In this document: positions 1 through 21,369 of the stretch, in pieces | How positions within the stretch are numbered: the stretch's first letter is position 1 | Layout of the letters: each line of letters starts with the position of its first letter | Translations under genes and position numbers: made by a program | Notes under the pieces: generated by a model | Told to the model about the DNA's origin: nothing | What the model saw: only the letters and a program-made list of their open reading frames with translations | Databases searched by the model: none | Origin: a virus | IMG/VR virus record: IMGVR_UViG_3300020215_000120 | Location: 1 to 28,603 of that record | Length of the DNA stretch: 28,603 nucleotides | Direction: 5' to 3' (one strand)

Positions 1-117
1 GAGGCGTTCCTGCGGGCCAGGCGGAAGCGGAAGCGGCTGGCGGCCTTCTGCGCCCGCCTGCTGGGGGAAGAGTCGGGAGAGGCGGAACCGGAAGGCCCTG
101 CGAGGGTAGCGGCATGA
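1..117 (+). CDS. Partial hypothetical protein (C-terminal end)
   Basis: The frame is open from the first base to a TGA at 115-117 and gives 38 residues rich in Arg, Lys and Glu. The stop overlaps the ATG of the next gene (ATGA at 114-117), the usual sign of translational coupling in this window. The start lies outside the window, so no function can be assigned. The basic stretch near its beginning (RARRKRKR) could bind nucleic acid, but that is only a guess. Confidence 0.5.
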   Translation, partial: EAFLRARRKRKRLAAFCARLLGEESGEAEPEGPARVAA

Positions 118-662
118 GCATGAGCGAGGAGAGGCTGGGAGGGATCGAGGCGCGGGTGGACGCGTCCTCGGCTTTCGTCATGGCCGACCTGCGGCCCGAG
201 TCGTGGGGGCTGGCCGAATGGGCGCTGGTGGACGACTGCCGCCAGGACCTGGCCGACCTCGTGGCCGAGGTGCGCCGCCTGCGGGCCGAGAACGAGGCCA
301 TGCGCAAGGTCTTCGCCGACGCCTGCCAGGAGCCGGGGGCGATGGGCGACGCCTTGGCCCTGGCGCGGCGGGAGGGGCAAGGCGACGGGCGGCTGGAGGC
401 GCTGCTGTGGTCGCTGCGGCACAAGGAGCCGGGCGAGGGCTGGCGGAGGCTGTGGGGCTGGGGCCGGACGGAGGGGCTGGACGCTTCCGCCGCCGGCTTG
501 CCGCCCGCCGTCTTCGACCTGCTGGAAGGCGGGGAATTGCACGACGGGATACGGCCCAGCCGCCACTACGCCACCCCCGCAGAGGCGATGGACGCCAAGC
601 GGCAGGCCGTCGCCAGGCTCGCCCGCAACGGATTCCCCACGCCCCCGGAGGCCAAGCCATGA
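114..662 (+). CDS. Hypothetical protein, 182 aa, with coiled-coil segment
   Basis: I do not recognise a family. A heptad-like acidic and basic stretch around residues 38-65 (DCRQDLADLVAEVRRLRAEN) suggests a short coiled coil. The C-terminal third has a conserved-looking block containing HYATPAEAMDAKRQAVARL. The start overlaps the stop of the preceding gene by ATGA, and the stop overlaps the start at 659 the same way, so three plus-strand genes appear to be cotranscribed. The strand is opposite to nearly all other genes in the window. Small early or accessory phage protein is the best description. Confidence 0.65.
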   Translation: MSMSEERLGGIEARVDASSAFVMADLRPESWGLAEWALVDDCRQDLADLVAEVRRLRAENEAMRKVFADACQEPGAMGDALALARREGQGDGRLEALLWSLRHKEPGEGWRRLWGWGRTEGLDASAAGLPPAVFDLLEGGELHDGIRPSRHYATPAEAMDAKRQAVARLARNGFPTPPEAKP

Positions 663-1027
663 GCGCGAAACGGTCCGTCCTGTCGATGACGCTCGACGCC
701 GTCGAGGCGATGCTGCCGCGCAACTGCCGCGAGCGGCTCGAGGAGCTGGAGAGGAGCGCGGCGGCGGAGCCGAGGCCCACGCCGAAAGGCCGGGCCAGGC
801 GGCAGCGCGAGCTGCTCGACGCCCTGGCCCGGGCCGCGAGGCTGGCGGCCCGCCTGGGGCCGCTCTGGCGCGCGGCGGGGGCGGGGATCGCCTACGCCCG
901 CCACGCCGCCGGGGAGGCCGCCAGGGGCACGGCGCTGGCCCTGCCGGAGACGCCGCCCAGGAAGCGGAAGGCCGAGCCGGCGGGGCAGCTGCGGCTCTGG
1001 CCGGAGCCGGAGGAAAAACCGGAATAA
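659..1027 (+). CDS. Hypothetical protein, 122 aa, basic helical
   Basis: The start is the ATG at 659, which overlaps the stop of the preceding gene (ATGA). The open frame extends further upstream, but only as a shadow of the previous gene. The product is Ala/Arg/Leu-rich and mostly helical. It ends in a charged tail with the segment GQLRLWPEPEE, which resembles a short hydrophobic peptide motif on an acidic tail. It is the last gene of the 1-1027 cluster and is followed by an AT-richer intergenic stretch. No family is recognised. Confidence 0.6.
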   Translation: MSAKRSVLSMTLDAVEAMLPRNCRERLEELERSAAAEPRPTPKGRARRQRELLDALARAARLAARLGPLWRAAGAGIAYARHAAGEAARGTALALPETPPRKRKAEPAGQLRLWPEPEEKPE

Positions 1028-1072
1028 TTCCCGTTTTCCCTTGCCCTGTAGTAACCATCCGGTTATTATTCC
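1021..1072 (+). promoter_or_regulatory. Candidate sigma70-type promoter with flanking inverted repeat
   Basis: In a locally AT-richer stretch, TTGCCC (1041-1046) is followed after exactly 17 bp by TATTAT (1064-1069), which matches the -10 consensus at five of six bases. An inverted repeat GGAATAAT (1021-1028) and ATTATTCC (1065-1072) brackets it and overlaps the -10, so a dimeric repressor could bind here. It would drive the gene at 1114. The XRE protein encoded at 1949 is a possible regulator, which is inference. Confidence 0.5.
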
Positions 1073-1113
1073 TGTGTCGGATGACACACAAGGGACACGA
1101 ACGGGAGACGACG

Positions 1114-1371
1114 ATGACGACCCGCACCGCCAAGGCCGAGACGCTGGCCCTGCTCAAGAGCGACATCCTGGCCGGCGGCGATGCAGCCTTCATGGCCCGG
1201 ATGGCCCTGGCCGACATGGCCGAGGAGCGGGGCTGGTGCGGGGCCGAGGTGCTGGCCGCCATCCGCACGCAGGCCGGCTCGCTGGTCGGGGCGGGCGACA
1301 AGGTCCGCTACGTCGTCCCCGGCGGCCCCGGACGCCGCAAGGCGGAATTCCGGCTGCGGACCACCAAGTGA
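1114..1371 (+). CDS. Hypothetical protein, 85 aa
   Basis: The chosen start is the ATG at 1114, preceded by GGGAGA at a suitable distance. An upstream in-frame ATG at 1081 would add 11 residues but has no Shine-Dalgarno sequence. The N-terminal half is helical (LLKSDILAGGDAAFMARMAL, then LADMAEERGW). The C-terminal half looks like a short beta element (VRYVVPGGPGRRKAEFRLR). It sits directly downstream of a candidate promoter. No family is recognised; a small phage protein is likely. Confidence 0.6.
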   Translation: MTTRTAKAETLALLKSDILAGGDAAFMARMALADMAEERGWCGAEVLAAIRTQAGSLVGAGDKVRYVVPGGPGRRKAEFRLRTTK

Positions 1372-1384
1372 TATCCACGGGACT

Positions 1385-1414
1385 CCGCGCCGTGCCCAGG
1401 CGCGGCCGCACAGG
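1385..1414 (+). other. Hairpin followed by CCGCA tail (outlying copy A)
   Basis: CCGCGCC (1385-1391) and GGCGCGG (1399-1405) form a perfect 7-bp stem with a 7-nt loop, immediately followed by CCGCACAGG. The same layout (GC-rich stem, then CCGCA) recurs four more times at 1683-1951. This copy lies in the leader of the gene at 1443, about 30 bases before its start. Its tail diverges after CCGCA, so it is the weakest member of the set. Confidence 0.4.
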
Positions 1415-1442
1415 TCGCCCGGAGGCAGGGGAGGGAAGGACG

Positions 1443-1655
1443 ATGACGGAGCGCGAGCGGGATCTGGCGTCGCTGGGCATCGAGTACGCCGAAGGCATCG
1501 AGTACGCCAGCGCGGTAGTCATCCCGGCGACGGGCCGCGAGGCGCGCAAGACGCCTCGCGGCACATGGGAGTCGCAGCCCTGGAACGACAACTACTGGAA
1601 GGAGTTCGACGACGTGGTGGACGCGATCAGGCACGGCACCCCGCCGAAGCCCTGA
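1443..1655 (+). CDS. Hypothetical protein, 70 aa, with internal 6-residue duplication
   Basis: The ATG at 1443 is preceded by a purine-rich ribosome binding site (GGGAGGGAAGG). The product is acidic in its first half and Trp-rich at the end (WESQPWNDNYWKEFDDVV). Residues GIEYAE are repeated immediately as GIEYAS, reflecting an 18-bp tandem duplication starting at about 1478. No family is recognised. The gene sits between outlying hairpin copy A and the hairpin array. Confidence 0.6.
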   Translation: MTERERDLASLGIEYAEGIEYASAVVIPATGREARKTPRGTWESQPWNDNYWKEFDDVVDAIRHGTPPKP

Positions 1656-1662
1656 TCGCCAT

Positions 1663-1680
1663 GCGTGCCCCTCGGCACGC
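1663..1680 (+). terminator. Hairpin after the 70-aa gene (terminator-like)
   Basis: GCGTGCC (1663-1669) and GGCACGC (1674-1680) form a perfect 7-bp stem with a CCTC loop, eight bases after a stop codon. No T-tract follows, so intrinsic termination is uncertain. It directly abuts the first unit of the hairpin array. Confidence 0.35.
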
Positions 1681-1682
1681 CT

Positions 1683-1951
1683 CCCGCACGGACGCGGGCC
1701 GCATCGAAGCAGGACCGAGGGAGGGGTGTCGTCGGCCACCCCGGACGATTCTCCAGGGCCGCAAGCCCTGGCCGCATTCAAGCCGATTCGGGATGAGGAC
1801 GGCCGCCGGTTGCTCATGGCCTTTCCCCGGCACAGGCCGGGGCCGCATTCAAGGAGTGCCCAGGGCAGGTTTTCGCCTCTTCCCCTCGCCTTTCTCCCCG
1901 GACGCGCGGCATGCCGCGCGTCCGGGGCCGCATTGCAGGAGACGCATCATG
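1683..1951 (+). repeat. Array of four hairpin + CCGCAT(T/C) tail units, about 71-bp period
   Basis: Four stems begin at 1683, 1753, 1825 and 1896, spaced 70, 72 and 71 bp. Stem sequences differ but each is perfectly self-complementary: CCCGC/GCGGG, CCAGGGC/GCCCTGG, CCCCGGC/GCCGGGG, and a perfect 32-bp palindrome at 1896-1927. Each stem is followed at once by CCGCATCGAAG, CCGCATTCAAG, CCGCATTCAAG and CCGCATTGCAG respectively. Pyrimidine runs ending in TCC precede the stems. Covarying stems plus a fixed tail suggest selection on RNA or single-strand structure. The last tail includes the ribosome binding site of the XRE gene. Confidence 0.65.
1896..1927 (+). promoter_or_regulatory. Perfect 32-bp palindrome upstream of the XRE gene
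   Basis: Bases 1896-1911 are the exact reverse complement of 1912-1927. The palindrome ends 21 bases before the ATG at 1949. It could act as an operator bound by the XRE dimer (autoregulation) or as an RNA hairpin in the leader. It is also the last stem of the hairpin array. Two roles are possible and the sequence alone does not choose between them. Confidence 0.45.
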
Positions 1952-2176
1952 GCCAAGCAGGAGACGCCGGGCGAGGTCGTCGCCCGGCTGCGGCAGGCGA
2001 AGGGCTGGACGCCCTACCGGCTGGCCAAGGAGGCCGGGCTGTCCGGCCCGGTGGTCTACCGGCTGGAGTCGGGCGAGCGCGGCCCGGCCTTCGGCACGCT
2101 CCAGGCCGTCTGCAAGGCCCTGGGGGCCAGCCTCGCCGAGTTCGACGGCTGCCCGCTGCCGGAGCGGCCCGGCTAG
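1949..2176 (+). CDS. XRE-family helix-turn-helix regulator, 75 aa
   Basis: This is a compact Cro/CI-type DNA-binding domain filling the whole protein. Residues 9-65 read VVARLRQAKGWTPYRLAKEA, then LSGPVVYRLESGERGPAF and LQAVCKALGASLAEF, the five-helix HTH_3 pattern with the recognition helix around LSGPVVYRLE. There is no C-terminal dimerisation or protease domain, so it resembles Cro-like or small standalone regulators. The ATG at 1949 has a good Shine-Dalgarno sequence (GCAGGAG, 7-base spacing). It converges on the giant protease gene (8 bases between stops). It may control lysis-lysogeny or the plus-strand cluster, which is inference. Confidence 0.85.
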   Translation: MAKQETPGEVVARLRQAKGWTPYRLAKEAGLSGPVVYRLESGERGPAFGTLQAVCKALGASLAEFDGCPLPERPG

Positions 2177-2184
2177 GCCCGGCC

Positions 2185-5100
2185 TCAATGGCTGTCGGTG
2201 CCGTAGGCCAGCGTCTCGTGGGCCACCGGGTCCACGTCGTGGAGCCTGCCCAGCTGGCCGATCCACTTCCCCGACTTGCGGTCCTTCCTGAACCCCGCCG
2301 CCTCCAGGTCGCCGGCCAGCATGTCGGCCCCCCTGCCGTGGACTTCCACGGTGCGGCGGTCCCTCTGGATGGCGTAGCGCACGCCGTCCCGCTTGCTGTA
2401 GTAGGCCGGCTCGCCGCCGGGGCCGGCCGTGTCCCCGTCTCCGGCCGAGGACCGCGGCAGGGTCTTCCGCTCCTCGGCCTTGCGGGCCGCCTCGGCTTCG
2501 GCCTCTTCCGCTTCCCTGGCCTTCTTGGCGGCGTCGGCCTTCCTGCCGGCGCGGTAGCGGGCATGGAACTCCCGCTCTTCCGGCGGCACCGCGACGAAAT
2601 CGCCGGGCACCCAGGCGATCCGCCGGCGGATCATCCCTTCGTCCAGCAGCGCCCCCGCCACGGCATCCGCCTCGTCGCGGCTGATGCCGGCGGATTCGGC
2701 GATGGCGTCGGTCGTGATGCCGCCCGATTGCTCGATGCGGCTTCGCAAGGCCGGGAGATGGCGGCGCACGGGGTCGGCGTCGTCCGCGCTGCCGCCCGCC
2801 GGAGCCTTCGGCGGCCCCTCGGGCGGCTTCGCAGGCCCTCCGGGAGCCGCCGGAGCCGGCGCATCGCCCTTCGCCCCGCCGCCCTCCTGCGGCCCGGCAG
2901 GGGCCTTCGCGGCCTTGATCGCGGCCAGCAGCCGCGCGGCCTCGCCCTTGTCGATCTTGCCGGCCTTGAGGCGGGCCAGCACGTCGTTGGCCGAAGGCGG
3001 CGCGGCAGGGGCGGGCGCGGAGGGAGCGGGGGCGGCGGGCTTGGCCGTGCCGCTCCCCTTCCCGCCGGCCGCCTCTTCGGGAAGCTGCTCGAGCTGCACC
3101 ACCTGGCGCATCGTCTTCTTGCCGGCCTGGACGAAGGGCACCTCCTTGATGCCGGCCACGCGGAAGCGCGAGCCGTGCGGCAGGATGAACTCCTTCTCGT
3201 TCTGCGCCGCGCCGATCTCGTCGGCGTCGATGCCGTGGCGGGCGGCGATCTCCAGCAGGACCGCCCCCTCGTTGCCCGGCCCCGCCGGGCCGAAGCCGCT
3301 GACGGCCATCGCCGGGCGGCGGCTGGCCGACTGGTGCCCGGCCAGCACGAGCGGGCCGCCCGAAGACAGGGCCTCCTGCGCCTGCCGCAGCACGTCCGCC
3401 CCGCCGCGCACGCCGCGCCAGACCATGACCGGCTCGGCCAGGGGCGGCGTCGCGGCGAAGGCCCGCAGCAGCCCCTCGTGGACCGCCCTGGCGTCCGCCG
3501 GCGGCTCCTTGCCCTCTCGCAGCGCCCTGTTCAATTCCTGGTAGACGGGCTTCTCCCCTGCCTCGTTGTCCTCGTCCACGGTGTAGCGCCGCACCGCTTC
3601 CTTGAGGCCCGCCGGCAGGGACAGGGCCGCCTGCCTGGCCGCCTCGGGCAAGGCCGACACGTCGAGCATCTTCCGCGCGGCCTTGTCGGACGGGAACGCG
3701 GGGGCCTTCGCCTTCGGGGCGGCCTCCGCCGGCTTCGCCTCCGCATGCTCGTCGTCCTTGCTCGACACCCAGCGCTTCGCCTGGTCGTCCCACTCCAGGC
3801 CGGGGCGGGGCGGGGGGCCGGGCGGGCCGGAGCGCTCGGGCGCGGCGGGCTTCTGCTTCGCCCGCTTGGCCTCCAGCGCCTCCACGGCCCGCCGCACGTC
3901 GTCGCCGGTCACGTCCTTGTCCGGCCCCATCGTGTAGTGGTAGAAGCGGTCGTCCTTGTGGATGCCGGCGGAAAGCCGCTGCGCCTCCGGGATCGACTGC
4001 ACCTCGTTGAGCTTGTGCAATTCGATCACGCCCGCCTGGTTGAGCGCGTGGATGGCGTCGAACGCCTCGCCCAGCGTCATCGCGCGGCCCGTCCTCCGCT
4101 GCACCTCCTGGCGCAGGTCGCGGGCCAGCAGCGGCACGGTGCCGCTGCCGCCCTTGTAGAGCCGGATCGTGTTGGCCGCCTCCGCCATCGCGTCGGCATG
4201 CTCCTTCGCCAGCGCGATGCCGCGCGGCTCGTCGATGGCGGTCTCGGGAACCGGGATGCCGTCCGGCCCCGGCTTTTCCACCACCCGCAGGCCGTCCTCG
4301 TCGTGCAGCACCTTGCCGGCGCTCGCGGCGGGCGGCGCGGGCTTCGCGGCCGCAGGAGCCGCCTTGGCGGGCGGAGCCTTCGCGGGGGCTGCCGCAGGCT
4401 GGTTCTCGGCGGCGATCTCGAGGTACCGGCCGATCTCCTCGGCCATGTCGGGGCGGGCGGCGATCATCGCCTCCGCCATCGCCTTCCGCCTCCCTTCGTC
4501 GCGGATGCCCTCGATGATGTCGAAGGCCCGCTCGCCGGTCAGCTTGGCGGGATCGCCGAAGGGCTTCGCCTTGCCGGCGGGCGCGTCGGCCTTCGCCGGC
4601 TTCGCCTCCGGCTCGTCGTCCCGCCTGGCCACCAGCTCGCCGTTCTGCCACTCGCGGCCCAGGCGGTCGGTGCCCGTGAAGCCCGGCTCGGGGGGCTTGG
4701 GCGGCCCGCCGGGGATCACCCGCCCCTCGGGGCTGGGCTTCGATAGGTCGGCAGGCTTGCCGGGCGCGGGCTTGCCGGCCTGCGGCGGCTTCGGGGCTTC
4801 CGCCGGGGGGAAGGCCGAGGCCTGCTCGTCGCGGGCCTGGACGTAGAAGCGCAGGCCGTGCGTGCCGATGCCGTCGCCGTAGGGCAGATGGAATCCCTCG
4901 CCGGCCCTCTCCTCGAGGTGCGGGTCGTTGGCGACCTGGAGCGTGAGCTTGTCCTCCTTCATCCACTGCTGCAAGGCGGCGTGGATCTCCTCCGTCGTCA
5001 GGCCGGGCACGGCGGCCTTCATCTCGTCCGCCAGCTCGGGGATCTTGACGATGCCGCCCAGGCGGGCCGTGGCATCGTGGAGCCGCCGGTAGGCGTCGCC

Positions 5101-7947
5101 GAACGCCGCCTGCACGTCGGGCCTGGAGGCGGCATCGGCGGGGGCGGCCTCCTTCGCCGGCTTCGGCGCTTCCTTGGGCTGCTCCTTGGGGGCCTTGGCC
5201 CGCACGGCCGCGACCAGCCGGTCGGCGACCTTGGCGGCCAGGTCCCACTTCACGCCCGACGCCTTCACCCCGTGCTCGGCCTTGATGGCCTTGATCTCCG
5301 CCACGGTGAGGCCGCGCAGGGTGCTGGCCAGGGCGTGGATGTCGTCGGCCGTCGCCGCGTCCCCCTTGGCGATGTGGGCCAGCACGGCCTCGCGGGCCTT
5401 GGCCGGGTCGCCCTTGGGGCGCTTCGGCCCCTGATGGCGCTCCTCCTGCCCGCGCTTCCACTCGGCGTGCTCGGCCTCCGTGCGCTTGGGCGAGTCCTTG
5501 CCGCCCAGCGGGGCGCGGCGGATCTTGCCGCCGACCTTGGTGTAGCGGTTGTTCCCGACCGTCCAGACCTCGCCTTCCTGCCGCGCCGTGCGGGCCTTCT
5601 CGCTGCACCACGACCACGACTTGCGGGCCAGGGCGGCGGCCCGGCGCTCCCCGGCGTCGGCCCAGGACCAGGCCTTGGAGCCGGACGGCTCCGGCTCCTC
5701 GGGCGGGCCGTCCATGTCGAGCCTGCCGTCGGGCGTCAGCTGCAGGACCGTGCCCTCGCCCCAGTATTCGTCGGCGTCCTCGTCGCTCCAGACCTCGACC
5801 CGCCTGTTGTCGGGGTTCAGGGCCAGCCGCACGCCCTCGTAGTCGCCGGCCAGCTCCCTGGCCCAGGCGGCGATCTCCTCCTGCGTGAGCTGGCCCCGGT
5901 TGAACAGCTGCGTGACCGCCGCCCCGTAATGCTCGCTCAGCTCCGGGTCGGCCTCGTCGGACAGCTCCATCCGCTCCGCCTCCTCGGCACGCTCGTCGTC
6001 GGTCATCATGACGACCTGGCCGGTGAGCGGGGACTCCCTGGCGAACGCCCTCCCGCCGAACTCGGCCTCGATGGCGTCGTCGTGCCAGATCTCCAGGCGG
6101 CCCGTCTCCGGGTTGATGCACGGCTCGTAGAAGAAGCGGTCCGACCCCAGCCCGCCCTTGTCGGCGCGGATAGCCTCGCGGATCTTGTCAAGGACCGCGT
6201 CGTTCAGCCCGCCCTGCTCCTCCCAGTCGCGGATCTCGGGCGTGATGAACCGCTCCGTCAGCTCCTCGTCGGGGCCGGAAGGGGCGTCGTCCTCGGCGTC
6301 CTCGTCCTCCTCGCTGTCCTCCGGCACGTCCTCGGCACCCGCTTCCGCCGGGGCGTCCTCCGCGAGCAGGCGCTCCAGCTCGGCGAGGGCGTCGTCCTCG
6401 GAGAGGCCGGTGTCCGCGCCGGGCGCGTCGGCCCCGCCGCCTCCGCCCCCGTCCGGGCTGACCCAGCGGCGCGTCTCCTCCTTCCACTGGAGGCCGGGAC
6501 GCGGGGGAGGCCCCGGCGGCCCCGCCTTGGCGGCCCAGCTCCAGGCCTTCTCGCCCGACGGCTCGTCCTCGCCGCTCTCGGCCAGGAGCCGCTCCGGTTC
6601 CGCCAGGGCGTCGTCGTCCTCCAGGGCCGCCGCCTCGGCCTCCAGGGCCTGGAGCGCCTGCTCGGCCTGCTCCAGGGCCAGCGAAGCGCCCTCCATCATG
6701 GCGAAGGCCTCCTCGGCGGCCTCCTCGGCGGCCTCGCCCGCGCCGCCGGCCTCGCGCCAGGACAGGTAGAGCGCCTCGACCGCGGAGGCGCTCCGCTCCG
6801 CCTCGCGCAGCCCGTTGGCGGCCAGCACCGCCGCCGCCGCCAGGTCGCCGGCCCGCGCCCGCTCCCAGGCCTCCGCCGGGTCCAGGCCCTGCTCCTCGGC
6901 CAGGGCAAGGGCGGCCTCCTCCAGGCGGTCGGCGTGGTCGCCGATGTCGCGCAGGGCCGACGCGGCGGCCTCCCAGGCCTCCTCGCCGGCGGGGACCTCC
7001 TTGAGCGCCGCCTGCAAGGCCGGCAGCGCGTCGGACAGGGGGGCCAGCGCCCCGGCCGCCGCGGATCGCGCCGGGGGCGGAGGCGGAGCCGGCCGGGCCT
7101 CCGGGGCGTCGGGCGATCCGGGACCGGAGGCGGGCGCGGCCTCCTCCTTGCCGCCCCCCTCGCGCGCCCAGCGGCGCGTCTCCTCGCGCCAGACGAGTCC
7201 CGGCCTGGGCGGAGGCCCCGGAGGGCCGGCCTTGCCCGCCCATTCCCAGGCCTTGGCCGCCATCCCCGCCGCGTCCCAGCCGCCCCGGACGGGCAGCGAG
7301 CGGCGGTCCGGCAGGAAAGGCCGCATGCTGTCCAGCAGCACGGGAGCCAGGGGGCGAGAACACCAACTCTTGCCGACGATGGCGCGGGCGGCCTCGCCGT
7401 TCACCGGGACGCTGGCGAAGCTGCACTCGACCAGCTCGGACCGCAGGATGAGCTTGCCCGCCGGGCCGTTCGCCGTGGCCCGGAAGCCCTGCTCGGGGTC
7501 GGGCGGCAACGCCTCCCACTCGATGGGGCGGAAGCCGGCGGAGCAGCCCGCCAGCATGCCCTCCTCGATCAGCGCGAACACCTGCTCGGCCATGAGGGAC
7601 CGCTGGGAAAAGTGGGCGGTGTGCCACATCTCGCCCGCCTCGGGGTCGCTCTCGACGGTGTAGACGCCCTCGGGAGTGCGGTCCACGGCGATGGGCAGCG
7701 GGTAGGCCCGGCCGTGGTCCCAGAGGCAGACCGGGTTGAGTTCGTGGGAGGAGGTGTCCATGCCGGCCACGGAGACCACGTCGCCCTGCCGGTCGCGCTT
7801 GGCCTCGCTGGTGAGCAGGGCGCGCACGGTCATCCGCCGCCCGTCGGCTTTCATGGGCCGCACGGGGGCCTGCATGCCCAGCATCAAGCCGGCCAGCCCC
7901 TGCCCCCCGGGGCCGGCGTCCTTGAGCGTGTACGCGAATTCGGCCAT
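2185..7947 (-). CDS. Giant prohead protease - ADP-ribosyltransferase polyprotein, 1,920 aa
   Basis: Residues 1-200 match HK97-type prohead (U35) serine proteases: His78 in WDHG, Ser136 in LAGCSAGF, and the strand ELVECSFASVPVN. A long low-complexity middle follows, with acidic coiled-coil stretches, three GPPGPPPRPG-containing linker repeats (about 241, 476, 1375) and several winged-helix-like segments. Residues 1440-1625 resemble the exotoxin-type ADP-ribosyltransferase fold: Arg1511 in VWRG, an STS-like S-A-S at 1540-1542, and catalytic E1584-K-E1586 in EKEFILP. The start at 7947 is preceded by AAGGAG; an upstream ATG at 7977 lacks a good site. The usual protease is about 200 aa, so this is extraordinary. 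It may be cleaved and the toxin domain packaged in the virion, which is inference. Confidence 0.85.
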   Translation of the reverse strand: MAEFAYTLKDAGPGGQGLAGLMLGMQAPVRPMKADGRRMTVRALLTSEAKRDRQGDVVSVAGMDTSSHELNPVCLWDHGRAYPLPIAVDRTPEGVYTVESDPEAGEMWHTAHFSQRSLMAEQVFALIEEGMLAGCSAGFRPIEWEALPPDPEQGFRATANGPAGKLILRSELVECSFASVPVNGEAARAIVGKSWCSRPLAPVLLDSMRPFLPDRRSLPVRGGWDAAGMAAKAWEWAGKAGPPGPPPRPGLVWREETRRWAREGGGKEEAAPASGPGSPDAPEARPAPPPPPARSAAAGALAPLSDALPALQAALKEVPAGEEAWEAAASALRDIGDHADRLEEAALALAEEQGLDPAEAWERARAGDLAAAAVLAANGLREAERSASAVEALYLSWREAGGAGEAAEEAAEEAFAMMEGASLALEQAEQALQALEAEAAALEDDDALAEPERLLAESGEDEPSGEKAWSWAAKAGPPGPPPRPGLQWKEETRRWVSPDGGGGGGADAPGADTGLSEDDALAELERLLAEDAPAEAGAEDVPEDSEEDEDAEDDAPSGPDEELTERFITPEIRDWEEQGGLNDAVLDKIREAIRADKGGLGSDRFFYEPCINPETGRLEIWHDDAIEAEFGGRAFARESPLTGQVVMMTDDERAEEAERMELSDEADPELSEHYGAAVTQLFNRGQLTQEEIAAWARELAGDYEGVRLALNPDNRRVEVWSDEDADEYWGEGTVLQLTPDGRLDMDGPPEEPEPSGSKAWSWADAGERRAAALARKSWSWCSEKARTARQEGEVWTVGNNRYTKVGGKIRRAPLGGKDSPKRTEAEHAEWKRGQEERHQGPKRPKGDPAKAREAVLAHIAKGDAATADDIHALASTLRGLTVAEIKAIKAEHGVKASGVKWDLAAKVADRLVAAVRAKAPKEQPKEAPKPAKEAAPADAASRPDVQAAFGDAYRRLHDATARLGGIVKIPELADEMKAAVPGLTTEEIHAALQQWMKEDKLTLQVANDPHLEERAGEGFHLPYGDGIGTHGLRFYVQARDEQASAFPPAEAPKPPQAGKPAPGKPADLSKPSPEGRVIPGGPPKPPEPGFTGTDRLGREWQNGELVARRDDEPEAKPAKADAPAGKAKPFGDPAKLTGERAFDIIEGIRDEGRRKAMAEAMIAARPDMAEEIGRYLEIAAENQPAAAPAKAPPAKAAPAAAKPAPPAASAGKVLHDEDGLRVVEKPGPDGIPVPETAIDEPRGIALAKEHADAMAEAANTIRLYKGGSGTVPLLARDLRQEVQRRTGRAMTLGEAFDAIHALNQAGVIELHKLNEVQSIPEAQRLSAGIHKDDRFYHYTMGPDKDVTGDDVRRAVEALEAKRAKQKPAAPERSGPPGPPPRPGLEWDDQAKRWVSSKDDEHAEAKPAEAAPKAKAPAFPSDKAARKMLDVSALPEAARQAALSLPAGLKEAVRRYTVDEDNEAGEKPVYQELNRALREGKEPPADARAVHEGLLRAFAATPPLAEPVMVWRGVRGGADVLRQAQEALSSGGPLVLAGHQSASRRPAMAVSGFGPAGPGNEGAVLLEIAARHGIDADEIGAAQNEKEFILPHGSRFRVAGIKEVPFVQAGKKTMRQVVQLEQLPEEAAGGKGSGTAKPAAPAPSAPAPAAPPSANDVLARLKAGKIDKGEAARLLAAIKAAKAPAGPQEGGGAKGDAPAPAAPGGPAKPPEGPPKAPAGGSADDADPVRRHLPALRSRIEQSGGITTDAIAESAGISRDEADAVAGALLDEGMIRRRIAWVPGDFVAVPPEEREFHARYRAGRKADAAKKAREAEEAEAEAARKAEERKTLPRSSAGDGDTAGPGGEPAYYSKRDGVRYAIQRDRRTVEVHGRGADMLAGDLEAAGFRKDRKSGKWIGQLGRLHDVDPVAHETLAYGTDSH
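3769..3831 (-). repeat. Collagen-like linker repeat 3 in the polyprotein
   Basis: It encodes SGPPGPPPRPGLEWDDQAKRW, the most diverged of three copies of a 21-22 residue linker with core GPPGPPPRPGLxW and a final RRW or KRW. It stands just before the ADP-ribosyltransferase domain, so it may mark a domain boundary or a processing site. Confidence 0.7.
6463..6528 (-). repeat. Collagen-like linker repeat 2 in the polyprotein
   Basis: This is a second copy of the GPPGPPPRPG linker, followed by LQWKEETRRW and preceded by KAWSWAAKA. It matches the first copy over nearly all of its 22 residues. Confidence 0.75.
7168..7233 (-). repeat. Collagen-like linker repeat 1 in the polyprotein
   Basis: This is the first copy of the linker, with LVWREETRRW after the GPPGPPPRPG core and KAWEWAGKA before it. 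It lies about 40 residues after the end of the protease domain, a plausible place for cleavage between protease and C-terminal cargo. Confidence 0.75.
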
Positions 7948-7998
7948 GCCGCGGCTCCTTGGTGGAACCGACAGCATGGCCGACGCTGGCCGCCGGGG

Positions 7999-16034: not shown

Positions 16035-17045
16035 TCAGGACGCCTCGGGGTCGATCTCCAGCTGCGACACGCCCCCCGCCTGCTCGGCGGCGAGGCGGCC
16101 CGCCTCCTCCAGGTTCTTGACGGCCTGCCGGTAGTAGGCCGGCTTCAGCTCGATGCCGATGCCGCGCCGCCCGTTGAGGACCGCCCCGTAGACCTCGCTG
16201 CCGACGCCCATGAACGGCGTCAGGACCGTCTCGCCGGGATTGCTCCACATGACCACCGCCCGCTCGACCACGTCGAGCTGCAAGGGGTGCATGTGCTTCT
16301 CGTCGGCCTCGTCCTTGTCGGCCTTGGCGGCGGAGTAGAGGCTGGCCCCGCTGCCGAGCGTGCGGTCGATGCGGATGTCGTCCCAGAAGGCCGAGGCGTA
16401 CTGCCGCCAGCACCAGTGCGAGTATTCGTTCTTGATCTGGTTGCCCTTGTAGCCGCGCCACTTCAGCACGCTGTCGGGCGGCTGCCGCGAGCCGGCGTAG
16501 CCGGTCAGCCCGGAGGGGTGCGCCACCGGCACGGGGTTCTTGCCGCTCCTGCGGAAGATCAGCAGGTAGTCGGCGTTGGCGGCGCTGCACCGGGTCGAGT
16601 CCTCGCAGAAGGTCTTGTGGTGCAGCGAGCGGACCATCGTCCGGTTGCGGACCGTCAGCGGCTCCTTCCAGACGTGGTAGCGGGCGATGTACTTCCAGCC
16701 CTCGGCCTCGTGGCACTTGATGATGTCGCCGGGGAAGTCGATCAGGTGGTGCTCGCCGCCCCTGGTGACGGCCACGTCCTGGCAGTGGACGGCGCTCATC
16801 CGCCCCGGCACGGTCAGCCGGTGCAGCTCGCGGACGAAGAACGCGTACTGCTGGAAGAACTCGGCGTAGTCCTTGGTGTTGCTCAGGTCCTCGGGGGCCG
16901 AGCTGTACTGGTAGAGCATGCCGCCGAAGGGCGGCGAGTAGAGCGACAGGTGGACCGAGCCGCCGGGCAGGGTCGGCATCACCTGCATCGCGTCGCCGTT
17001 GTAGATCGCGTAGCGGTCGGCGATCAGCTGGTCATGGACAGCCAT
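16035..17045 (-). CDS. DNA N4/N6-type methyltransferase, 336 aa
   Basis: It transfers a methyl group from S-adenosylmethionine to adenine-N6 or cytosine-N4. Catalytic motif SPPFGG (37-42) precedes the SAM-binding motif TPFMGVGS (276-283), the order of beta-class enzymes. HPLQLDVVERAV (253-264) and the strand GIGIELKPAYY are also typical. SPPF is used by both N4 and N6 members, so the base is uncertain. No restriction enzyme is adjacent. The start at 17045 has GGAGGT at 6 bases and lies 22 bases inside the helicase gene. It may protect phage DNA. Confidence 0.85.
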   Translation of the reverse strand: MAVHDQLIADRYAIYNGDAMQVMPTLPGGSVHLSLYSPPFGGMLYQYSSAPEDLSNTKDYAEFFQQYAFFVRELHRLTVPGRMSAVHCQDVAVTRGGEHHLIDFPGDIIKCHEAEGWKYIARYHVWKEPLTVRNRTMVRSLHHKTFCEDSTRCSAANADYLLIFRRSGKNPVPVAHPSGLTGYAGSRQPPDSVLKWRGYKGNQIKNEYSHWCWRQYASAFWDDIRIDRTLGSGASLYSAAKADKDEADEKHMHPLQLDVVERAVVMWSNPGETVLTPFMGVGSEVYGAVLNGRRGIGIELKPAYYRQAVKNLEEAGRLAAEQAGGVSQLEIDPEAS

Positions 17046-18445
17046 GAGGGCACCTCCGTCTTCCTGGCGGGCCTGGGGGCGGAAAGGGAAAGCGAGTCGT
17101 TCATGTGGCGGATGACGCTGTCGAGCATCTGCGCGGCCAGGGCCTCCTTGCGCTCCATGTTCCGCTTGACGTTGACCTCGCCCTCGGTGGCGATCACGTC
17201 GAGCGTCACGGGCCGCTTCTGGCCGAAGCGCCAGCAGCGGCGGACGCACTGGTAGAACTGCTCGTAGCTGTGGGTGACGAAGGTGACGACGTGGGCGCAG
17301 TGCTGCATGTTGAGGCCGAGGCCGGCGATCTTCGGCTTGGTGACCAGCACGCGGGCCTGCCCGGACAGGAAGGCGAGGATCAATTCCTCCTTCTCGTCCA
17401 TGCCCTGCGATCCCTTGACCTCGACGGCCCCGGGCACGTCCTTGCCGATGCGCTCGGCCTCGTCGTTGAGCTGGCACCAGACCACGGCGGAGTCCGATTC
17501 CGCCGTCAGGGAGGCGACCAGCTCCGCCCGCTGCTCGATGGTGCGGCGGCGCTCGCCGCGCTCCTGGTTGAGGCCGAACGCCGGGACCGTGAACAGCCAG
17601 CCCGGAGGGGCCGTCTCCGGGACGACGACGTGGTCGCGGCGGACCAGCGGCGGCAGCGTGAACTCGCTGTCGTCGTAGCCGCCCAGGTCGGACGGCTTGC
17701 GGCAGGCCCGCGCCCACGACGACACCCATTTCCAGAACGGCTCGTGGGCGTGCGGGCGCAAGGCCCACTGCCCGAACCCCTGGATGACCCGCCAGGAGAG
17801 CCGCTTGGAATGGACGATGTCGGAGGCCGTGGCCTTGGCCTTCTTCTCGTCGTCGCTGATCTGGCGGAAGAACGTCTCGAGCATGGCCGAATGGGTCAGC
17901 TCGCCCAGCGCCTCCGACATCGTGCCCATCTCGACGTAGTCGTTGGGGCAGGGCGTGGCGGTGCAGAGCAGGCGGTAGGGCACCTTGGAGAGGAAGCGCG
18001 TGACGGCCTTCTGCGTGGCCCCCGACCAGTGCTTGAGGATGCTCGCCTCGTCGCACACCACGCCGGCGTAGCCGTCCGGGTCGAACAGGTGGAGCCGCTC
18101 GTAGTTGGCGACCGTCACGTCCCGCCTCGGCTTGCCGTCCGTCGAGCGGTGCGCCTCGACGCCGAACTTCGCCGCCTCTCGCACCAGCTGGTGCGAGACG
18201 CCCAGCGGGGCCAGGGCGAGGACGGGCTTGTTGGCGTGCCGGACGACGTTCATGGCCCACACGAGCGAGACGGGCGTCTTGCCCATGCCGCAGTCGGCGG
18301 CGATCATCGCCCGCCCGCGCCGCACGGCCCATTCGTCCAGGTGGGCCTGGAAGCCGCGCAGGAAGGAAGGCATCCACGTCGGGGCGAACCCGCACGCCTT
18401 CCCCTGCTGCGACTTGGAAGCCAGGAACGATCCGTAGTCCTTCAC
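17024..18445 (-). CDS. SNF2/DEAD-like helicase, 473 aa
   Basis: The start is a GTG at 18445 that overlaps the RusA stop (GTGA) and has GGAGG 8 bases upstream. Walker A is AADCGMGKT (49-57), motif II CDEAS (DEAS at 132-135), motif III TATP (162-165). The second RecA lobe has VVWCQLNDEAERIG, VLVTKPKIAGLGLNMQ and VRRCWRFGQKRPV, the SNF2-type pattern with QxxxRxxRxGQ-like motif VI. The last residues recall family members paired with a methylase in phage replication modules, as here. It would remodel DNA or displace proteins using ATP. Confidence 0.85.
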   Translation of the reverse strand: MKDYGSFLASKSQQGKACGFAPTWMPSFLRGFQAHLDEWAVRRGRAMIAADCGMGKTPVSLVWAMNVVRHANKPVLALAPLGVSHQLVREAAKFGVEAHRSTDGKPRRDVTVANYERLHLFDPDGYAGVVCDEASILKHWSGATQKAVTRFLSKVPYRLLCTATPCPNDYVEMGTMSEALGELTHSAMLETFFRQISDDEKKAKATASDIVHSKRLSWRVIQGFGQWALRPHAHEPFWKWVSSWARACRKPSDLGGYDDSEFTLPPLVRRDHVVVPETAPPGWLFTVPAFGLNQERGERRRTIEQRAELVASLTAESDSAVVWCQLNDEAERIGKDVPGAVEVKGSQGMDEKEELILAFLSGQARVLVTKPKIAGLGLNMQHCAHVVTFVTHSYEQFYQCVRRCWRFGQKRPVTLDVIATEGEVNVKRNMERKEALAAQMLDSVIRHMNDSLSLSAPRPARKTEVPSWLSMTS

Positions 18446-18831
18446 GCTTCGATCCTCCAGGCCCGGACGACGATCCGCCCTCCGGGATGCACGGGACGCC
18501 TGCGGATGTGCAGGTCGTCGATCTGCTCGTCGTCGTCGTAAAGCCCCGCCGCCTGCAACGAGTCGAGGACTCCCTTGAACAGGTTGTCCAGGTCCCTCCT
18601 CCGCCGGTCGGGCGGATGGGCGCAGATCTCCACGGCGAGGCGGCCGAACAGCTTGGGGCGGCCGCAGCCCAGTAGCAGCGCCCAGGCGGCCGTGCGGTAC
18701 GCCTTGCCCTCCTCGGCGACATACTTCTGGATCACCCATCTCGCGCCGCTGCGGACGACCCGCTCGCCCCAGTAGTGGTTGACGGACGGCGGCCACGGCA
18801 GCGGCAGCTCGACGGCTCCGGGCGGGGTCAT
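18442..18831 (-). CDS. rusA: RusA-family Holliday junction resolvase, 129 aa
   Basis: RusA cuts four-way DNA junctions. The motif RDLDNLFKGVLDSLQ, then LYDDDEQIDDL has acidic Asp80, Asp82 and Asp101 and Lys86, the same spacing as E. coli RusA Asp70, Asp72, Asp91 and Lys76. Length fits the family. The start at 18831 overlaps the DnaB stop by ATGA, and the stop overlaps the helicase start, giving a tightly coupled DnaB-RusA-SNF2 group. Confidence 0.9.
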   Translation of the reverse strand: MTPPGAVELPLPWPPSVNHYWGERVVRSGARWVIQKYVAEEGKAYRTAAWALLLGCGRPKLFGRLAVEICAHPPDRRRRDLDNLFKGVLDSLQAAGLYDDDEQIDDLHIRRRPVHPGGRIVVRAWRIEA

Positions 18832-20484: not shown

Positions 20485-21369
20485 TCACAGCCCGCACATG
20501 CCCACGCAGTCCTCCAGCCCGAACAGGTCGGGCTGCCTCCCCGCCTGCCGCCTCGCCTCCTCCCGCGCCGCACCCGCGTCGATGTCCACCAGGGGCAAGG
20601 GCGTGCAGGAGCGGTGCAGGTAGAGAGCGGCCTCCATCCCGCGAGCGCACGCGCTCGCGGGGTCGCGGATCGACTCGTCCACCTTGACCGCCTGCGCCCA
20701 GCCCTCCGGGTCGCTGTCGCGGAGGTGCTTCCATTCGGAGTCGCTGCGGTAGGGGCAGAACGTGCAGGCCGACCGCGGCACCTGATGGGGAACCCTCTTG
20801 GCCAGCCACGCCAGGCAGCGCTCGCGGGTCCAGCCGATCTCGGCCAGGGGGAACGCCGGCACGGCCCACGGGTGCCCCGCCATCCTGGCCTTGACGCTCT
20901 TGATCCGCGAACCCTCGTCGTCGTGCAGGCCGAACGACTGCACCACCCGCGTCCCCTTGGGCACGCGCCGCCCCTTGGCCACGCCCAGCAGCTCGCGGAT
21001 CGCCTGCTCGACCACGTCCACCTTGTACTCGCGGGTGCATTGCCGCCTGACCTGGCCCTCGCGGGCCTCGAGGTCGATGGGCGACGAGGTGTAGGCCGGG
21101 ATGGAGACGAAGCGCCGCGAGCCGCCCTTGCGCCCCTGTCCCGCGGCGTGAACGCCGCGGGACAGGTTCATGGCCAGGTCGCCGCGGCTGCGGACGGCGA
21201 TGCGCGGGCCGCCCAGCCCTTGCAGCCAGCGGAGGTGTTCGTAGACCGCTTTCGGCTCGCCCATCGTGTCCGCGAACACGGCATAGTCGATGGGATCGAT
21301 CAGCCCGTCCATCGCCAGGAGGTAGACCGTGGTCGAGCCGACGCCGGCCCCGAGGTTCAAGACTCGCAT
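20485..21369 (-). CDS. PP-loop ATPase, PAPS-reductase-like, 294 aa
   Basis: The PP-loop is LGAGVGSTT (6-14), followed by VFADTMGEPKAVYEHLRWL, as in phage PAPS-reductase-like proteins. Cysteines are at 111 (QCTREYK), 202 and 205 (CTFCPYRSD), and at the end (CVGMCGL), a likely metal or Fe-S site. The family adenylates a substrate and often handles sulfur, but its phage role is not known; DndC-type DNA sulfur modification is a remote relative, not shown here. The start at 21369 has GGAGG close upstream and overlaps the initiator gene by 13 bases. Two perfect palindromes lie inside the gene. Confidence 0.8.
   Translation of the reverse strand: MRVLNLGAGVGSTTVYLLAMDGLIDPIDYAVFADTMGEPKAVYEHLRWLQGLGGPRIAVRSRGDLAMNLSRGVHAAGQGRKGGSRRFVSIPAYTSSPIDLEAREGQVRRQCTREYKVDVVEQAIRELLGVAKGRRVPKGTRVVQSFGLHDDEGSRIKSVKARMAGHPWAVPAFPLAEIGWTRERCLAWLAKRVPHQVPRSACTFCPYRSDSEWKHLRDSDPEGWAQAVKVDESIRDPASACARGMEAALYLHRSCTPLPLVDIDAGAAREEARRQAGRQPDLFGLEDCVGMCGL
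20638..20661 (-). repeat. Perfect palindrome inside the PP-loop gene (10-bp stem)
   Basis: CCCGCGAGCG and CGCTCGCGGG flank a 4-nt CACG centre. It lies in codons 237-244 (DPASACAR). Together with the palindrome at 21135-21166 it makes two long perfect hairpins in one gene. Confidence 0.6.
21135..21166 (-). repeat. Perfect palindrome inside the PP-loop gene (14-bp stem)
   Basis: Bases 21135-21148 are the exact reverse complement of 21153-21166 with a TGAA loop on the plus strand. It lies in codons 68-79 (NLSRGVHAAGQG), between the PP-loop and the first cysteine motif. A 14-bp perfect stem inside coding sequence is unlikely by chance. Confidence 0.65.

Follow-up and report, generated by a model that had tools for sequence, protein, structure and literature searches.

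Reviews of CRISPR repeats in viruses describe solitary repeats and mini-arrays whose repeats are identical to those of the host (PMC11656645; PMC8616872). Repeat mimicry by solitary phage units has been proven in CRISPR subtypes other than I-G, and the survey that established these RNA anti-CRISPRs (Racrs) defined them as solitary and left out arrays as well as units flanked by partial repeats (Camara-Wilpert et al. 2023, PMC10651486). Viral mini-arrays that target rival viruses are also known (Medvedeva et al. 2019, PMC6858448), with further examples in Faure et al. 2019, as cited in PMC8616872. In the one type I-G system studied, the repeat has 36 nt and a 7-bp stem; the processing enzyme Csb2 cuts 4 nt 3' of the stem, leaving an 8-nt 5' handle, and stays on the hairpin with a KD of about 43 nM, the handle not being bound (PMC9638904).

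Here we describe an array of hairpins in a phage contig that resembles type I-G repeats yet differs from each of these forms. The window, the whole stretch of 28,603 nucleotides that we analyzed, is an entire IMG/VR virus record with a GC content of 73%, and its genes include a terminase, a portal protein, a DnaB-type helicase and a DNA methylase. Among the relatives of the terminase is a fragment in the planctomycete Zavarzinella formosa, which we took as an entry point to Planctomycetota rather than as identification of the phage host. The features discussed below are listed here; scores are those of R1, a covariance model trained on 22 host repeats and no window units, whose E-values the tool itself describes as rough.

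1041..1069, + strand: sigma-70-like promoter TTGCCC-17-TATTAT, called from a consensus match alone (0.0 expected in shuffles)
1073..1088, + strand: operator-like perfect palindrome TGTGTC-GGAT-GACACA just 3' of the -10 box, the site of a putative regulator
1081..1371, + strand: small ORF of 96 aa (or starting at 1113), first gene 3' of the promoter, without family match
1385..1411, + strand: u0, candidate outlying degenerate unit, CCGCGCC GTGCCCA GGCGCGG followed by CCGCAC, from the hairpin scan; a weak R1 match, 10.2 bits over model positions 5-26 only
1443..1655, + strand: small ORF of 70 aa, without family match
1679..1710, + strand: u1, I-G-like, stem CCCGC/GCGGG (5 bp), tail CCGCATCGAAGC; R1 10.2 bits over its full length, in register with u2
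1711..1748, + strand: spacer-like gap 1, 38 nt
1749..1783, + strand: u2, I-G-like, stem CCAGGGC/GCCCTGG (7 bp), tail CCGCATTCAAGC; R1 21.6 bits, E 7.5e-5 (rough); full-length, sub-threshold match to Rfam CRISPR-DR16
1784..1820, + strand: spacer-like gap 2, 37 nt
1821..1854, + strand: u3, I-G-like, stem CCCCGGC/GCCGGGG (7 bp), tail CCGCATTCAAGG; R1 19.9 bits, E 2.8e-4 (rough)
1855..1891, + strand: spacer-like gap 3, 37 nt
1892..1939, + strand: u4, I-G-like, lengthened stem, tail CCGCATTGCAGG, from the hairpin scan; R1 12.4 bits over its full length
1949..2176, + strand: XRE/Cro helix-turn-helix regulator of 75 aa (HTH_3, E 5e-12), in a putatively Aca-like position

A reading of the whole of positions 1-4200 and an exhaustive hairpin scan both place four perfect + strand hairpins, starting at 1683, 1753, 1825 and 1896, in an intergenic stretch of 293 bp, with CCGCAT directly 3' of every stem. 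This agrees with an earlier, sequence-only reading of the same DNA, as do the measured steps of 70, 72 and 71 bp between stem starts. Measured from tail to tail (CATCGAAGC, CATTCAAGC, CATTCAAGG and CATTGCAGG), the steps are 73, 71 and 85 bp, the last being larger because the stem of u4 is long (CCCCGGACGCGCGG/CCGCGCGTCCGGGG, at least 14 bp, with the loop CATG). The units fill the space between small + strand ORFs; the array ends 9 bp 5' of the start codon of the XRE gene, with whose ribosome-binding site the tail of u4 merges. Pairwise identity among u1-u4 is only 54-71%, and all four stem sequences differ while all remain perfectly paired, which bears out the earlier suggestion that the stem changes are compensatory and that structure is kept. 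Regular spacing and unique, spacer-like gaps of near-constant length are present, whereas identical direct repeats, a hallmark of CRISPR arrays, are absent from u1-u4. The outlying copy that had been proposed at 1385 does have a perfect 7-bp stem, but its tail (CCGCACAGG) opens with CCGCAC and its model match is weak, such that u0 is only plausibly a degenerate unit.

Of the nine CCGCAT copies on the window's + strand, only the four in the array are preceded by a hairpin. In none of 60 dinucleotide-preserving shuffles of the window did four nearby perfect hairpins share the next 6-mer. Similarly, the window has four occurrences of the motif consisting of a T, a CC..GG stem and CCNCAT; none of 150 shuffles had more than one, and 2.33 Mb of DNA from other phages and bacteria contained a single copy. 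We conclude from these comparisons that the four-hairpin array did not arise by chance.

Other structured elements were also noted in and around the array. A further perfect hairpin (1663-1680, GCGTGCC-CCTC-GGCACGC) lies just 3' of the stop codon of the 70-aa ORF and abuts u1; it has neither a CCGCAT tail nor a T-run. T-runs of the kind found in intrinsic terminators are likewise absent 3' of the array stems. No Rfam family reached its gathering threshold in the window. On the minus strand, a low-threshold hit to 'M23 RNA' covers two GC-rich hairpins and scores 34.8 bits, short of its cut-off of 41.2; we considered it fortuitous.

Several lines of evidence connect the units to type I-G CRISPR repeats. 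The phage contig L381, found with a pattern for two tandem tails, carries GTATCTCCACGGTGTCTCACCGTGGCCGCATTGAAGC in two identical copies 73 bp apart. For both u2 (19.4 bits) and L381 (18.6 bits), the best CRISPR family in Rfam is CRISPR-DR16 (RF01330), matched over its full length and with all pairs kept, but below the gathering score of 35. The consensus of this family, GGCCUCAUUGAAaC, yielded the search pattern GGCCNCATTGAAR, with which 33 of 392 Planctomycetota genomes were found to hold CRISPR arrays (0 with the reversed-pattern control). Their repeats are 36 nt long, have the form NTCTCC-stem-loop-stem-GGCC(C/T)CATTGAAGC and recur with a period of 71-76 bp, separated by spacers of 34-38 nt. 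Within host arrays the hairpin is identical (325 of 332 repeats); between species the stem of the consensus repeat varies around a fixed T-CC...GGCC(C/T)CATTGAAGC, with the two outer C-G pairs invariant and the remaining pairs covarying. Type I-G cas genes adjoin all three arrays that we examined (L656, L658 and L660) and encode Cas3g, Cas8g/Csx17, Cas7g, Csb2 and Cas4g-Cas1g.

With the host-trained model R1, the two top-ranking matches in the window are u2 and then u3, and u4, u1 and u0 are found as well, although neither u0 nor u1 is significant when taken singly. All of u1-u4 align to the model over its 36 positions; competing matches in the window, among them 21141-21160 with 16.3 bits, consist of a bare hairpin and lack the handle. 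Across 242 kb of DNA that included L381 and phages related through the terminase, L381 alone scored above 11.3 bits. A covariance search akin to the one that the sequence-only reading had proposed thus confirms I-G-like units, and the resemblance to a CRISPR array with diverged repeats that it had pointed out is matched by both the model and the I-G pattern. That reading knew of no CRISPR repeat that the tail would fit with certainty; the tail can now be recognized as a drifted type I-G end, CC(C/T)CATTGAAGC. A replication, packaging or generic regulatory RNA element, which it had also considered, finds no support, given that a model of host CRISPR repeats recovers the units.

All five window hairpins keep the C-C/G-G base of the stem. 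In addition, u1-u4 keep the T before the stem, a perfect stem of mostly 7 bp, the CCGC that follows it, the AT that starts the handle and a spacing of 71-73 bp. Drift has affected the stem sequence, the loop and the other positions of the 8-nt handle, the variants after AT being ATCGAAGC, ATTCAAGC, ATTCAAGG and ATTGCAGG. Relative to the I-G 3' end, the units therefore retain CCGCAT, with drift at the remaining handle positions and a G at the third base after the stem. This base is also G in L381, whereas it is C or T in the planctomycete arrays that we found, and a repeat-end pattern with G at this position matched none of the 392 Planctomycetota genomes; the G might mark a mimic or an unsampled host group. 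Exact searches for GGCCGCATTCAAG in 199 Planctomycetia genomes and for GGGCCGCATTCAAG in viral contigs gave no hairpin-preceded copies among the matches listed, and the best match between 785 host spacers and the window, 19 of 20 bases, is not convincing. Judging from sequence, we regard it as very probable that the window units are type I-G CRISPR-repeat-like, and the repeats that they resemble under R1 are those of planctomycetes.

The surroundings of the array have an organization of their own. In acr-aca loci, small ORFs and then a helix-turn-helix gene are expressed from a promoter accompanied by an inverted repeat. At the array, a promoter and inverted repeat are followed by small ORFs, the array itself and, last, the HTH gene, an order that appears to resemble such loci. 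The promoter is the sole one found between 600 and 2400, and the array is probably transcribed from about position 1076 as part of this small operon. We detected no cas genes among the window proteins scanned, saw no transposon genes in the window and found no relatives of the portal or XRE proteins in viral contigs. Near the start of the 70-aa ORF (1476-1508), GGCATCGAGTACGCC is tandemly duplicated with an 18-bp step. Elsewhere in the window, a 1930-aa ORF (2185-7977, - strand) begins like an HK97-type prohead protease, continues with long low-complexity regions and has no Pfam match, and an 895-aa protein (16035-18722, - strand) joins a C-terminal N6/N4 DNA methylase to a long uncharacterized N-terminal part.

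The sequence-only reading had named a lack of further copies in related genomes as what would overturn it; related arrays do occur in other phages. A search that demanded two intact handles returned 33 viral stretches with at least two I-G-like repeats, and for that reason would miss arrays drifted like that of the window. Some of these are ordinary identical-repeat arrays, possibly on host fragments in the case of L681, L698 and L702. In L686, L688, L675 and L697, stems differ from unit to unit while pairing is kept. L686 has the stems CCGGGCA/TGCCCGG, CCGTCTG/CAGGCGG and CCGCCCA/TGGGCGG, together with an outlying CCGCC/GGCGG 547 bp off, much like u0; L688 has three different stems and L697 several, and one unit of L675 has a 14-bp stem, like u4. 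Because a degenerate terminal repeat could explain a stem difference in two-unit arrays, the case rests on arrays with at least three units. Over 41 distinct model matches from 13 phage contigs, the window left out, stems pair in 98.4% of cells versus 73% in shuffles and show 56 double changes versus 13, in an alignment fitted to the model, which favors pairing. Proteins encoded near these arrays include tail, portal, terminase, Erf and exonuclease proteins, suggesting that most array-bearing contigs are true phages, and place the same kind of array beside unrelated genes. Most of the other diverged arrays still have an intact ATTGAA handle, their gaps measure 35-42 nt, and they do not share the acr-aca-like setting. 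Phages retrieved as terminase relatives contained no array of the window type. L705, whose terminase is 47% identical to that of the window over 273 aa, carries three identical intact I-G repeats and is an intact counterpart in a related phage.

Several other features came to light in these comparisons. An internal hairpin of at least 6 bp is comparatively frequent in the gaps of phage arrays, with 6 of 28 versus 44 of 565 host spacers. The phages L036, L046 and L048 carry a tandem array with an 84-bp period, two alternating hairpins and the fixed tails ACCGCG and AGTTGA. The clostridial contigs L240 (5110-5265) and L267 (2890-2950) have rows of perfect hairpins that differ from one another but have a tail in common (GAAATCCC; TCATAACT); the spacing of these hairpins is short and variable, and they look like a separate hairpin-plus-tail family. 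A direct repeat in L577 (3612-3705) is 40 bp or longer and ends in CCGCATTGAAGCAAC, with a period of 84 bp and without an I-G hairpin.

Most likely, as far as sequence can tell, the array units occupy or hijack the type I-G immune system of likely hosts. Our best reading, which we hold with barely more belief than doubt, is that the array is a transcribed decoy that titrates host Csb2 and Cas7, in other words an RNA anti-CRISPR. The host crRNA-processing Csb2 (Cas5-6g) would bind the array hairpins, cut 4 nt past each stem and remain on the hairpin; applied to the window units, this rule places the cut within CCGCAT, between CCGC and AT. The array would then offer several high-affinity dead-end substrates that draw Csb2 away from real crRNAs, and Cas7 settling on the short products might likewise be diverted, making this a multi-unit RNA anti-CRISPR. 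Stem diversity could bring more host Csb2 variants within reach and could prevent the loss of units by recombination. The invariant part of u1-u4 is the hairpin base, the four nucleotides CCGC and the AT, and conservation breaks in the handle. What is conserved is therefore the substrate of Csb2 and not the guide part, which suits a Csb2 decoy and is less than a good crRNA should keep, on the evidence of four units. Handle drift, the lack of a cas gene among the scanned proteins, the acr-aca-like operon and the precedent of solitary mimics led us to favor the decoy. Against it weigh the fact that proven Racrs are solitary, the intact ATTGAA of most other diverged arrays, the lack of a convincing match to the phage among host spacers, transcription that is predicted, and the scores of u0 and u1, neither significant singly. 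The host-length gaps (37-38 nt versus 34-38 nt) also weigh against a pure decoy, which has no need of such a length; descent from a true array would explain them.

These gaps can also be taken at face value. Host I-G machinery could make working crRNAs from the array, with the 37-38 nt gaps as spacers against competing phages and repeats that were diversified, structure being kept, so as not to recombine with one another or with a host array. Such a guide array would account for the 71-73 bp taken up by unit plus gap, as in host arrays, and for the 35-42 nt gaps and mostly intact handles of the other diverged phage arrays. The three identical intact repeats of L705 and the known rival-targeting mini-arrays (PMC6858448) point the same way. 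However, every window handle deviates from ATTGAAGC, and published mini-arrays have one or two spacers and host-identical repeats (PMC11656645). The comparison of gap sequences with phages that the sequence-only reading had called for, and that of the array with plasmids, gave no match: none of 28 phage-array gap sequences matched 50,697 phage records, a weak result given the few public planctomycete phages, and none had a convincing match in the other DNA compared. We consider a guide array unlikely, if clearly the leading alternative to the decoy. A captured host I-G array decaying by neutral drift would account for the imperfect handles and the 54-71% identity among units, but drift would break stems first, and the window has four perfect stems of different sequence, while phage-unit stems elsewhere are paired far beyond shuffles (98.4% versus 73%) with many double changes; we find this improbable. 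Marginally less credible still are cis elements unrelated to CRISPR, such as attenuators, XRE operator hairpins or replication and packaging sites, that converged on this shape. The units do sit in the leader of the XRE gene, with u4 ending in its ribosome-binding site, but a model that was trained solely on host CRISPR repeats finds them, they match I-G in period, stem base, cut-site nucleotides and the start of the handle, and the same kind of array stands beside unrelated genes in other phages.

Somewhat beyond an even call, we believe that phages, probably of planctomycetes, have repeatedly built I-G arrays that keep structure and diversify sequence, as multivalent anti-CRISPRs over Csb2 variants or as recombination-proof guides. 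If so, these arrays form a class overlooked by surveys that seek solitary units or identical repeats, and they make it testable whether mimics diversify to match the diversity of host Cas6 or stabilize stolen arrays. Our literature search, conducted outside subscription journals and preprints, returned no description of an array of mutually diverged repeats and, by repeat sequence, irrelevant matches only; nor did the literature searched contain a type I-G RNA anti-CRISPR, and the main text of the Racr paper does not include I-G (PMC10651486).

Compared with known systems, the window array is closest to planctomycete I-G arrays, with which it shares the 36-nt unit, the C-C/G-G base, the 7-bp stem, the 4 nt plus 8-nt ATTGAAGC-like handle and a period near 71-76 bp. 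Unlike them, its four hairpins all differ, its handles are imperfect, its third base is G and no cas genes were found. Like a Racr (Camara-Wilpert et al. 2023, PMC10651486), it is an intergenic phage repeat mimic without cas genes and with a promoter 5', but it consists of four mutually diverged units, with u0 at most one extra, instead of a solitary one. With mini-arrays (Medvedeva et al. 2019, PMC6858448) it has in common the repeat-spacer layout and a viral setting lacking cas genes; known mini-arrays have one or two spacers and repeats (nearly) identical to those of the host, whereas the window has three gaps, repeats that all differ and no protospacer found. Diverged repeats on a mobile element are also known from CRISPR-associated transposons of type I-F (Petassi et al. 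2020, as cited in PMC8616872), but as described there these flank a homing spacer in a cas-bearing transposon, and no transposon genes were seen in the window. The array thus fits neither a solitary RNA anti-CRISPR nor an identical-repeat mini-array, and arrays of this kind, which keep fold, cut site and spacing but not sequence, escape both types of search while recurring in unrelated phages.
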